From Prototheca cutis (Eukaryota > Chlorophyta > Trebouxiophyceae > Chlorellales > Chlorellaceae): 64,000 nucleotides of DNA. The notes under the pieces are model-generated. The model had not been told where the DNA came from and searched no databases. It worked only from the letters and a program-made list of their open reading frames with translations. The DNA lies in assembly GCA_002897115.2 (NCBI GenBank), contig BCIH01000005.1, forward strand, positions 788,683-852,682, in the 5' to 3' direction. Within the stretch, counting starts at the first letter, position 1. Every line of letters starts with the position of its first letter. The position numbers were made by a program, and so were the translations under genes. This document shows positions 3,227-16,283 of this stretch, one piece after another.

Positions 3227-4364
3227 ATGACCAAGATGCGGCTCCTGGCGGTCTTTGTTGTCTTGCCAGTGGTGTGGCACGCTGCGGCTGCAAGGGATAT
3301 GCTCCAGGCTTCCCTCATGGCTCCGTGCTACGTGCCCTCCAGTTGGTAAGCCGCGGAAAATGGTTTCGGAGGAATCACTTGATGCGAGAGCTTGCGAAAA
3401 GTCCGGGGTTCAAATCCTCGCAACTCCAACGCATTTGGACCTTCGACTGCAGCAATGCAGTGCACTTCCTTAGGGGTTGTGACGCAGTGGTAGCGTGTTC
3501 GCTTCGCATGAATTTCCTTTTTGGTTTTTTTCCTTTTTTTCCGACCACACCATCGTCTAAGGCACGAACTCGTGGCTGCCCTGCTGCAGGTATCCGCTCC
3601 AGAACTGCAGGTGAGGCTGGTGGGGCCACGAAGGTCTGACCACAGACTGACGGTATCCTGGATGTGGAATGACTCCCGTGCTCTTCCTGGACAACACTCC
3701 CCAGCAACCAATCCTATACTGCAGTCTGTCCATGAGTGATTCTGTCTGCATTCGCAAGTACGACGTGTATGCCACCCTGGCAGAGTGCTGCACAGCTGGA
3801 ACCGGCGCCTTCCCCGGCGGCTGCTCTCCCAGTGGTGCACAGTGCTGGGTGCCGGGATCGTACTACCCGACCCAGACCTGCCAGCTCAGCACCAACGCGA
3901 CGCAGTGCGCCCAGAACTGGGGCAAGGTCCGTGCTGCGGATTGCGTTCAATTTTTGGGAGACAGGGAGCTGCAATGGAATTTTGGGTCCCTGGGTAAGAG
4001 CCTTCCGGTGGCCGACGCACCATTGGAGCAAGGATTGGGAGGTGGCGGAGTCAGCTTTCTATGTGCTGCGCCAACATGCCATGCTCTCCAGCCCCTTTGG
4101 ATGGATGAGAAGGTCAACCTGCATTCCTCACCGATGCTGCAGTGGTCGACCAAGGAGGCATGCTGCACCACTGGCGCTGCCTTTGAGAAAGGGTGCACTG
4201 TGACGGGCAGCTGCTGGGCAGCTTCCAAGTGGTACCCGGAGCAGGCATGCTCCCAGACCGCCGACCAGGCCATCTGCCAGCGTGGCTGGGGCGCGTTTGC
4301 CTCACAGGACGCCTGCTGCCAGCCCAGTGCCGCCTTTTCTGATGGCTGCAAGTCCGTTGTGTGA
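3227..4364 (+). CDS. Small secreted Cys-rich repeat protein
   Basis: Unknown function, probably extracellular or wall-associated. Exons 3227-3345, 3590-3610, 3725-3926, 4143-4364 give 187 residues with consistent phases. Residues 1 to about 21 are a signal peptide (MTKMRLL, hydrophobic AVFVVLPVV, then AAAA). The rest is about two and a half copies of a Cys repeat with the pattern W/Y-YP-x-Q-x-C, then C-x-x-x-W-G, then A-x-CC-x-x-G-A-F-x-x-GC, then C-W. The repeats align across the exon joins (SSWYPLQNC, GSYYPTQTC, SKWYPEQAC), which supports the splice model including a 21-nt micro-exon. The repeat is reminiscent of Cys modules in algal secreted proteins but I cannot name a domain. Intron 1 (3346-3589) contains the permuted tRNA-Ala. 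Confidence 0.75.
3407..3417 (+). promoter_or_regulatory. Pol III B box (in the 3' half)
   Basis: GGTTCAAATCC matches the eukaryotic B-box consensus GGTTCGANTCC at all but one base. It lies upstream of the A box, the reverse of a normal tRNA gene, as expected from the permutation. Confidence 0.8.
3480..3490 (+). promoter_or_regulatory. Pol III A box (in the 5' half)
   Basis: TGACGCAGTGG resembles the A-box consensus TRGYNNARNNG and covers the D arm of the permuted tRNA. It lies 3' of the B box. Confidence 0.6.
3518..3540 (+). terminator. Pol III T-run terminators
   Basis: Three T runs (5, 7 and 7 T) begin 9 nt after the 5' half of the permuted tRNA ends. They are ideal RNA polymerase III stops on the coding strand. 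They support the idea that the unit is transcribed as its own short RNA with order 3' half - spacer - 5' half. Confidence 0.75.
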
Positions 4365-13508: not shown

Positions 13509-16283
13509 ATGAACCTGCGGGCTGTACTGGTGCTTGGCGCTGTCCTGCTGCACACAGCGGTACGACAAAATGAGTGCGGCGAGCTCTGACCTTGAAGAAG
13601 CCAGAGTTGTCATGCAATGTTTGACAAGCATCACATCTCCCCATCTCACTCTCGCGGCGCAGGTGGCAAGCGGTTGTTCCTCCGCGTTCTTTGCCCTCCC
13701 CACAGCCAGGTACAACCCCTTCGGAACACTAGATCTAAGCAACTGGCGGCGGTGTTTGCGACCCGCAACCCGGTTTAGAGTGTTGCAACTATGATTGGAC
13801 TTCGCAGCAGCCCGATTTAGCACGTCGAACGAAACTGACTATGGCCTCACCGTCCCCATGCACAGGACCTCGTCCGGAGTCGTCCTCTTCACACCTGGCA
13901 GTGCCACGGCCCTATGCAAGTGAGCATCCGGGCTATCGAACAACTTTTTGGGGTTTTCATGGGCGCACGCGGCCCATGCGAACCCTCCTTGTCTGGCCTA
14001 GCATTTCCGACCATTCGGTCACCGTCTCTGTCCCCGTGTACTTTACAGGAAGAAGAGCTACGCCCGTGCTGGCAGCGTCAAGACTGCTGAGCTCAGCGCA
14101 CTGGGTCTTCCTGCCCACGCGTTCAGCCTGGTCACCCTCAGTGCCTGCCGCGGCTCCAGCTGCCAGGCCATCGTGGGCGTGGAGTGCGTGCCCAAGGGCC
14201 AGACGGCGTGCCGCGCCGATTCGCTGGGCAACATTGGCGCCAGCAATGTCGGCTGGGGCAACTTTGGCAAGGGCAATGTTGGCTACAAGAACATCGGCAA
14301 CAACAACATGGGCAACGAGAACTGGGGCTCCAACAACAAGGGCGTCGGCTTTGTCTGCAACGGAGGCCGCGGCATCCCCAGTGGGTGCACCGCCGCACAG
14401 CTCGTCACCTCTGACACCCTGGACCTGACGAAGATGCCGCCGCCCCCGCCGCCCCCCGCACGCCGCAGTCCTCCCCCGCCTGCGGCCAAGCCCTTTATCG
14501 TGCTGCAGAGCGCAGTGTGCGGCGTGGTGGAGGAGAACACCATGGAGTGCAATGCCATCATGCGCCTGTCCCGTGCACTGCCCGCCGGCGCCCGGGTGAC
14601 GCTGGTCTACCGTCTGGGCGGTGTGCTGCACACCGACACCTTTTCCCCTGACCCCGCGGCCACATACACCCGGGTGTCGGTGTTCCAGCACACCACTGCC
14701 ACCAGCGGCACCGCCGTGGTCAAGTACACCACCCGCGACGGTGCCGTGGTCAAGTCGGCGGAGCGGGCCGTGGTGGGAGACCCCATGGTCATCACCGATG
14801 CGGCGTGCGCCCGGCGCCCCGTCGGCTACGTCACCTGCACCTCTACCGTGCGGCTGGTGGCCTTGCCAAAGAAGGGAACCAACGTCACCGTGGTCTACGT
14901 CCTCGGGACCCAGGCCTTCTCCGTCAACTGGGCAGTCACCAGCCTGGTGTCCACGCACACATCGGTATTCAAGGGCGCGCAGCACAACTCGGGCTACGCT
15001 GAGGGCTACTTCATCGGCCACTCTGGCACCTCGTACCGCTCGTCCCGTGGGCTCGTGCGCGGCATCAACCATCTGCCGCCGCCGTCAGCCAACAAGCTGT
15101 CGCCGCCGCCGCCATCGCTGCCGTCGCCGCCACCCGAGGTCGCGCCCATCACCCTGAACGCCGCAATGTGCAAGCCCCCTGTGGGCAAGGACGTCGAGTG
15201 CACCACGATCGTGAGCCTGCGTGAGCTGCCGCCCAACAACGGCAACGTAACCGTGCGGTACATGTTTGGCTCGCTGGGGCTGACCGCCGCGCTGGAGGTA
15301 TTCAGCGCCTCATGGCGCCCTAAGACACTGACATCCACGTTTGTCACGTCTTTCCCCTCGGGGACAAACAAGGGCACTGCATCGGCGACCTTTGTCGGAA
15401 AGGACGGCAAGGTGTACGGATCCCTGAACTCTGGAGTCACAAACCACTTCCCCCCTCCCCCGGGCAACATCCACGGCCCGCCGCCGCCTCCCCCCAAGCG
15501 GTCCCCGCCCCCCCCGCCGACCAGGAGCCCACCGCCTCCCCCCAAGCGGTCCCCACCCCCGCCGCCGACCAGGAGCCCACCGCCTCCGCCCAAGCGGTCC
15601 CCGCCTCCGCCGCCGACCAGGAGCCCACCGCCTCCGCCCAAGCGGTCTCCGTCTCCGCCCCCGTCGAGCCCATCGCCGACCAGGAGCCCACCGCCGTCAA
15701 CGAGCCCGCCGCCGTCACCGAGCCCACCACCACCTCCAAGCCCACCTCCACCGCCGTCTCCGCCCCCTCCCGAGAGCCCACCCCCTCCCGANNNNNNNNN
15801 NNNNNNNNNNNNNNNNNNNNNNNNNNNNNNNNNNNNNNNNNNNNNNNNNNNNNNNNNNNNNNNNNNNNNNNNNNNNNNNNNNNNNNNNNNNNNNNNNNNN
15901 NNNNNNNNNNNNNNNNNNNNNNNNNNNNNNNNNNNNNNNNNNNNNNNNNNNCTCCCCCATCGCCGCCCCCTCCCCCATCGCCACCACCTCCCCCATCGCC
16001 ACCACCTTCTCCCCCGCCGCCTCCACCAGTGACCGAATGCTCGGCGCACACGAGCGGGCAACAACCGTCCAGTGATGGCGACTGCTTCTCAGGCTACCCT
16101 TACCTCTGCACCAAGTCGAGTTCGGTGTATGCCATGTGTGATGCCAACGGAGCGCAGTCGGCACCCACCTGCCCAAGTGACGGTTCGGAAGCAGCTTGGG
16201 GCCATTGCACGGCAGGCTCAGCCCAGCCAAACATCATTCTGTGCATGCAGGATGACACGATGTATGCATACTGCATTGCATAG
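13509..16283 (+). CDS. Pro-rich (HRGP-like) cell-wall protein with N-x-G repeats
   Basis: Predicted secreted wall or matrix glycoprotein. Exons 13509-13559, 13663-13709, 13866-13919, 14049-16283. Domains in order: signal peptide MNLRAVLVLGAVLLHTA; a short Cys-containing region; an N-x-G pentapeptide tract at 14227-14345 (NIGASNVGWGNFGKGNVG and on); three related beta-type repeats of about 90 residues separated by short PPPP hinges (each begins with an AxC, e.g. LQSAVC, ITDAAC, LNAAMC, and has a VTxVY or VTVRY strand); a long Pro block with PPPPKRS/PPPPPTRS units; and a Cys-rich C-terminal module of about 80 residues ending at 16283. The Pro block is cut by a 160-N gap, and the frame before and after the gap differs, so the gap length is wrong. 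Pherophorin-like in architecture, but the terminal domains are not obviously pherophorin domains. Confidence 0.75.
14227..14345 (+). repeat. N-x-G pentapeptide repeat tract
   Basis: Tandem five-residue units with Asn and Gly in register (N-I/V/F/M-G-x-x/x-x) over about 40 residues. The pattern is that of the pentapeptide repeats of mycobacterial PPE-MPTR proteins, which is unexpected in an algal wall protein. Confidence 0.75.
15478..15791 (+). repeat. 48-bp tandem repeat coding Pro-rich units
   Basis: About four copies of a 48-bp unit encoding PPPPKRSPPPPPTRSP, then degenerate SPPPPPSPPP sequence. Copies differ by C/G third-base changes. The array runs into the N gap. Confidence 0.85.
15792..15951. 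other. Assembly gap (160 N)
   Basis: Unread bases inside the Pro-rich array. Reading frames on the two sides do not agree, so the true length is not 160. Confidence 0.99.

Follow-up and report, generated by a model that had tools for sequence, protein, structure and literature searches.

A tRNA-Ala(CGC) gene with its halves in reversed order on one strand and a 44-nt spacer between them was identified at positions 3393-3508 (+) of the window, the whole stretch of 64,000 nucleotides of Prototheca cutis DNA analysed here. Judged from its sequence, this is very probably a working, circularly permuted nuclear gene of type II. The class of permuted tRNA genes is already known; the parts unexpected to a specialist are the genome-wide extent of permutation and the nesting of the window copy in an intron, itself predicted.

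Layout of the window gene

The elements of the gene and its flanks, in DNA order, are:

3382..3392 (+), leader flank ATGCGAGAGCT, exact in the C4 twin too, able to pair with the anticodon loop (sequence comparison; fold)
3393..3428 (+), 3' half, nt 38-73 of tRNA-Ala(CGC), B box within, placed first (sequence; ARAGORN on joined halves; finder, 21/21 pairs)
3429..3472 (+), 44-nt intervening sequence, which in a circular intermediate would link nt 73 with nt 1 (sequence; finder)
3473..3508 (+), 5' half, nt 1-37, with the A box and the anticodon CGC at 3505-3507 (sequence; ARAGORN; finder)
3518..3540 (+), T-runs at 3518-3522, 3525-3531 and 3534-3540, a likely Pol III terminator (sequence)

A permuted tRNA-Ala(CGC) broken in the anticodon loop had been proposed at this site in an original prediction, and that reading is supported. 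The coordinates and letters which it gave for both halves, with the 3' half first, were correct. It held that all four arms pair (7+4+5+5), and the structural finder returned 21 of 21 standard pairs, G-U counted. A rotated tRNA search had been asked for; ARAGORN, run on the joined halves (5' half followed by 3' half, 72 nt), called tRNA-Ala(cgc), a complete tRNA with the CGC anticodon, the invariant bases, the G3-U70 pair and the discriminator A73, all as predicted. The predicted break at 37/38 is present, in that the DNA order interrupts the tRNA sequence there, and the junction would be of the 37/38 type. The exact base is blurred by a TG that is repeated at the two junctions (CGCA/TG..., ...CT/TG), also correctly described beforehand, which makes the cut site ambiguous by up to 2 nt. 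The 44-nt spacer lies inside the published range of 1-74 nt (PMC3978253).

ARAGORN found no tRNA gene in the 64-kb window as written, and Rfam gave no match to it at gathering scores. Rfam matches of mascRNA-menRNA and tmRNA to the 3' half, covering the T-arm and acceptor part only, were below gathering scores and were rejected. To gauge chance, a first-order Markov model was fitted to the window; on both strands of 60 random sequences drawn from it (3.84 Mb) the finder made five matches, three with 18 pairs and two with 19, and never reached 20 or 21. The reversed window yielded no finder match. The sole other match in the window, at 13919 (18 pairs, 77-nt spacer), was dismissed as chance.

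The predicted host gene

The permuted tRNA lies within a predicted protein-coding gene, the start of which is composed as follows:

3227..3345 (+), exon 1, predicted; signal-peptide-like start, ends ...CYVPSSW
3346..3589 (+), intron 1, predicted, 244 nt, GTAAGC...CTGCAG; holds the permuted tRNA on the same strand
3590..3610 (+), exon 2, predicted; YPLQNC
3725..3937 (+), exon 3, predicted; starts SLSMSDSVCIRKY...; end approximate

The three predicted exons read through as CYVPSSW-YPLQNC-SLSMSDSVC. Two homologues (P0121 and P0122) are unbroken over the join of exons 1 and 2 (PCYVPDSWYPIQTC and PCFVPTSWYPYQLC respectively), and because both run on across this join the permuted tRNA is placed in intron 1. 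The window copy is therefore predicted to be nested in an intron of a secreted-protein gene. The host protein (window 3227-4361, +) appears secreted and Cys-rich, and modules of the type CYVPSSWYPLQNC / CWVPGSYYPTQTC recur in it. Its homologues, two in all, are from an Auxenochlorella hybrid (57%) and Micractinium (49%), neither of which has a listed Pfam domain.

An aminopeptidase is also encoded in the window, for which 8000 candidates were scored and the best of the 120 matches listed reached up to 61%; its match to Chlorella variabilis was 56% over 93% of the query, and that to Auxenochlorella protothecoides 61% over 53%. Protein similarity suggests a chlorellacean alga of the Auxenochlorella lineage. 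A long reading frame rich in proline (SPPPPP) and containing a masked N run occupies window 14173-16032 (+), and the window holds 285 N in all. No match to rbcL was found in the 23-contig assembly.

Alanine tRNA genes and the C4 twin

The genome searched comprises 19,886,974 bases in 23 contigs, of which the window is C5:788683-852682. A 25-mer of the Ala 3' half, with up to two mismatches, was located at three genome sites, all three permuted:

C5, Ala(CGC) window copy, 44-nt spacer, without a TATA-like box
C4:1581477, second Ala(CGC) copy (the twin), 46-nt spacer, TATAAATAAA upstream
C3:778729, permuted Ala(TGC), 16-nt spacer

The RF00005 genome search, in which 63 of 246 first-look candidates were scored, returned 17 ordinary genes, none of them for Ala. 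The original prediction had called for a hunt for an ordinary Ala-CGC gene elsewhere, the presence of which, together with a lack of reads joining 3508 to 3393, would make the permuted copy a relic; that scenario is unsupported.

The halves of the window and C4 genes are identical (72/72), whereas their spacers share 39 of 46 aligned positions (Fisher p=0.001), as expected if selection keeps both copies. Homology between the two begins 11 nt before the 3' half, reaches into the T-run and is lost beyond, so that the leader and T-run of the twin are retained in the window copy and the upstream promoter was not copied. As the homology spans leader to terminator, the copied unit resembles a transcript, and this would account for the missing TATA box in the window copy. 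From this comparison we infer that the C4 gene may have been copied to the window through RNA.

Census of permuted and ordinary tRNA genes

The genome-wide census recovered 40 permuted genes with 27 anticodons and 18 ordinary genes with 11, and the two sets share no anticodon. Permuted genes thus made up 40 of the 58 tRNA genes found, each anticodon occurring in a single form; the counts are lower bounds, and the finder takes breaks at the anticodon loop (37/38) only.

Permuted: Ala AGC (three), CGC (two), TGC; Cys; Glu CTC (three); Gly GCC (four), CCC, TCC; His; Ile AAT (two), TAT; Leu TAA; Asn (two); Pro TGG; Gln CTG (two); Arg TCT, CCG, TCG; Ser TGA, GCT, CGA; Thr AGT (two), CGT; Val TAC, CAC (two); Trp; Tyr
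Ordinary (RF00005): Lys-CTT (two), Arg-ACG (two), Phe, Arg-CCT, iMet, Leu-CAG (three), Asp (three), Pro-AGG (two), Pro-CGG, Leu-CAA
Ordinary, intron-bearing: Leu-TAG (L071), identified by hand; labelled Phe by ARAGORN

The finder, which accepts only candidates broken in the anticodon loop with 18 or more pairs, was run on the retrieved loci and the window. It made 42 matches, of which 40 were retained as permuted genes, and all 40 are broken at 37/38 because the finder was built for that junction type alone. One match (L010; 18 pairs, 122-nt spacer), antisense across the iMet gene, was dismissed as chance. Three T-arm patterns gave 50, 24 and 154 matches, with 24, 13 and 104 in backwards-read controls; for the last of these patterns, 11 new sites (10 stretches) were examined from the 100 matches listed. 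The first non-Ala permuted gene (Ile, L021) was obtained with a DNA query, two Gln genes were found incidentally at other loci, and the start of the Trp 3' half (L059) was set by hand to the class-I form. The ordinary genes detected by RF00005 number at least 17, given the 63 of 246 candidates scored, and Leu-TAG was missed by this model. Eight expected anticodons, Gln-TTG, Glu-TTC, Lys-TTT, eMet, Ser-AGA, Thr-TGT, Val-AAC and Leu-AAG, turned up neither as permuted nor as ordinary genes, so the census is incomplete.

Bias towards either form was checked with patterns blind to it. The 50 matches of the form-blind T-arm pattern fell on permuted genes in 24 cases, on ordinary genes in nine and on an orphan Phe 3' fragment in one, with 16 left unassigned. 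A form-blind A-box pattern made 14 matches with up to two mismatches, against four in the control, and its nine exact matches were seven permuted and two ordinary genes. The A-box pattern TGGCGCAGTNGGNNAGCGC made 54 matches against 29 in the control, five with one mismatch and 49 with two; four of the one-mismatch sites were examined, and none held a tRNA. Site C10:345373 was examined and held no tRNA. All 14 multi-copy families were uniform in form (0 of 100,000 label shuffles), nine of them permuted. Spacers ranged from 9 to 80 nt over the 40 permuted genes, with exactly 9 nt in 11 and none below 9; the longest, in Ser-TGA (L068), surpasses the maximum of 74 nt given in PMC3978253.

The orphan tRNA-Phe 3' fragment, at C8:264197 (-) (L051), extends from the anticodon to nt 73 and differs by one base, by eye, from the working Phe gene. 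No 5' half was found for it in the 900 bases searched or, by eye, in the flanking stretch, and a permuted Glu-CTC gene has its T-arm ∼150 nt away from the T-arm of the fragment. The two permuted Val(CAC) genes, C10:106094 (+) and C10:116599 (-) (L056 and L057), are in opposite orientation ∼10 kb apart; their halves and 56 nt downstream are identical, while the spacers, 40 nt in each, match at a chance-like 24/47. Two permuted Gly(GCC) genes (L096, C13:122060-122670) lie ∼300 nt apart in the same orientation, and across the four Gly(GCC) copies the flank pair CAG(C/T)TT and GCTG is kept while the outer flanks differ.

Covariation and folding of the two halves

A covariance model in permuted order, trained on two Ala genes and seven rotated ordinary genes, detected 38 of the 40 genes at E<=1e-6; the two that did not reach this level were Gln (L011) and Leu-TAA (L090). 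In the alignment of 37 distinct genes, 97.7% of paired cells held standard pairs, compared with 57.7% when letters were dealt anew and 39.5-45.8% in a slid-partner control, percentages that are partly built in, the finder needing at least 18 pairs and the alignment being fitted to the structure. Cells changed on both sides numbered 297, against 82.4 in shuffles (0/500 as high), and the covariation score was 1.040 against 0.247 (0/500; 37 distinct rows). The number of pairs with any two-sided change, 19, showed no excess over shuffles (308/500).

In energy terms the cloverleaf is not the preferred fold. The linear precursor of the window gene had a z of -0.9 and was predicted to fold into a structure other than a cloverleaf, and in the joined, unmodified tRNA the cloverleaf was calculated to lie 5.2 kcal/mol above the minimum. 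A cloverleaf was found within 3 kcal/mol of the minimum in 21 of the 40 permuted genes.

Transcription and splicing signals

A TTTT within 30 nt downstream of the 5' half was present in all 40 permuted genes, against 7.4% of control windows, and downstream of all 17 ordinary genes; between the halves it occurred in one of the 40 (Arg-TCG) and was absent from the window gene. Matches to TATAWA (>=5/6, at -70..-20) were found in 18 of the 40 permuted genes, against 7.1% of controls, leaving 22 without; the contrast with ordinary genes (3/17, p=0.07) is only suggestive. No TATA-like box was detected at the window copy, the best match in -70..-20 being 3/6, and the C4 twin has a 6/6 match (TATAAATAAA). 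As the box is at the twin only, the C4 gene may supply most of the tRNA-Ala(CGC). Its absence from the window copy is not decisive, because some green algal cases in PMC3978253 show only an ambiguous AT-rich region.

The leader of the window gene can pair with the anticodon loop, which would constitute an hBH-type splice motif. Eukaryotic tRNA introns use a canonical register in which two flank nucleotides are left out and position -3 stands opposite position 32. Two options are available here: the canonical one, 3388-3390 with 3503-3505 (three pairs, G3390-U3503, A3389-U3504 and G3388-C3505), and an alternative, 3382-3386 with 3505-3509. The latter is the ATGCG/CGCAT helix of the original prediction, which does appear in the predicted minimum-energy fold, but the register supported over the 40 genes is the canonical one. 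Flank-loop pairing in that register, the best of nine tested, averaged 3.00/5, against 2.37/5 in gene-swapped combinations (p=5e-5; one gene per each of 27 anticodons), and the -3:32 pair alone gave p=0.0013. The duplex of each flank with its own anticodon loop and trailer was calculated at -6.5 kcal/mol, compared with about -4.4 when swapped (p=5e-5; one gene per anticodon). When a single best register with a full 4-bp helix was sought blindly, the result fell short of significance (p=0.31).

Catalytic domains resembling Sen2 and Sen34, named by their best PDB chains, are encoded in the genome, as is RtcB, with four collinear matches.

Discussion

The sequence of the window Ala(CGC) gene, its pairing, its flank register and its T-run were observed, along with Sen2-like, Sen34-like and RtcB genes; an ordinary Ala gene did not turn up in the searches made. 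By analogy with Cyanidioschyzon and the green algae, the gene would be expected to be transcribed and its RNA to form a circle, undergo end processing and be charged, and a processing pathway for algal permuted genes has been described (PMC3978253, sections 5 and 6). One transcript would carry leader, 3' half, spacer, 5' half and trailer in that order. Pairing of 39-43 with 27-31 in the anticodon stem and of 66-72 with 1-7 in the acceptor stem would bring the halves together, and the Sen2/Sen34 endonuclease, guided by the pairing of leader and anticodon loop, would cut at the borders of leader and nt 38 and of nt 37 and trailer. RtcB would then ligate 37 to 38; the 44-nt spacer would close the resulting circle and be removed by RNase P and tRNase Z before CCA addition.

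The halves might instead be a chance arrangement, or remnants of two tandem ordinary tRNA genes with no function in permuted form. One proposed source of permuted genes is a tandem duplication in which the outer halves are lost (PMC3978253, section 10), and the orphan Phe 3' fragment at C8:264197 is one half standing alone. However, the Markov sequences gave no match with 20 or more pairs, the genome holds 40 intact permuted genes, the searches made revealed no ordinary Ala gene, and the halves covary; this explanation is considered highly improbable.

A duplicate of the C4 gene that is silent or barely expressed, carried in the intron while C4 does the work, would fit the clear TATAAATAAA at C4 and its lack of a counterpart at the window copy, homology that leaves the promoter behind, and the position inside a predicted intron. 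It is nevertheless unlikely, the halves having stayed identical at 72 of 72 positions though seven of 46 spacer columns differ (p=0.001), leader and T-run having been kept, and 22 of the 40 permuted genes likewise having no TATAWA match of >=5/6. The location on the same strand in the predicted 244-nt intron 1, again with no TATA-like box, would also suit a tRNA processed from the intron of the host Pol II pre-mRNA instead of from a Pol III unit of its own. Against this, the intron contains a Pol III-like T-run just past the 5' half, as in the other 39 genes, and such an origin is also judged unlikely. The favoured reading is that the window copy is a working permuted gene. A wider view, in which permutation is the main form of tRNA gene in this genome and the window copy arose from a C4 precursor by RNA-mediated copying, landed in an intron and still functions, is advanced tentatively as possible but somewhat doubtful.

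The existence of permuted tRNA genes and of their circular intermediate is established, and a 2014 review counted 34 such genes in seven organisms, with a maximum of 11 per organism; its table includes Ala(TGC) and lacks Ala(CGC) (PMC3978253). The relatives named in the original prediction (Cyanidioschyzon, prasinophytes and nucleomorphs) were apt, and the closest published case found is the trebouxiophyte Auxenochlorella. In strain UTEX 250-A of this chlorellacean alga (Plant Cell 2025) the tRNAscan-SE set was incomplete and genes with reversed halves were then detected (PMC12636532; preprint PMC12633428). It is a different species, its proteins 57-61% identical to those here, and its gene list stands in Supplementary Fig. 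S1. No mostly permuted genome was found described in the open-licence literature, although that figure could hold one.

The genes of Ostreococcus, Micromonas and the Bigelowiella nucleomorph (Maruyama et al., 2010) are also of the green lineage, nearly all broken at 37/38, with a short spacer and an hBH-type splice motif, but they number two to six per genome with none for Ala, compared with 40 genes and 27 anticodons here (PMC3978253). The Amorphochlora nucleomorph has two permuted Ser genes (PMC4494063). Cyanidioschyzon merolae (Soma et al., 2007) shares the reversed halves and the downstream T-stretch, and an upstream TATA-like element in most cases, where some green algae have the ambiguous AT-rich region; the circular intermediate has been demonstrated in C. 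merolae (PMC3978253). In that alga 11 of 43 genes are permuted, at several junction positions, with Ala(TGC) at 59/60 (PMC3978253), in contrast to 37/38 in all 40 genes here, the sole type sought. In PMC13353863 the subject appears only as a citation of Soma 2007.

The 2014 review leaves unsettled both the origin of permuted genes and their transcription from reversed A and B boxes (PMC3978253, sections 5 and 10). If permutation is indeed the main form of tRNA gene here, Pol III must commonly act on A and B boxes in reverse order. At least 40 permuted genes in a 20-Mb genome, with nine permuted multi-copy families, provide natural contrasts for splice-motif rules and spacer limits, and the Ala(CGC) twins, with and without a TATA-like box, offer one for promoter dependence and RNA-mediated copying. 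Standard tRNA annotation can overlook many tRNAs in such algae.
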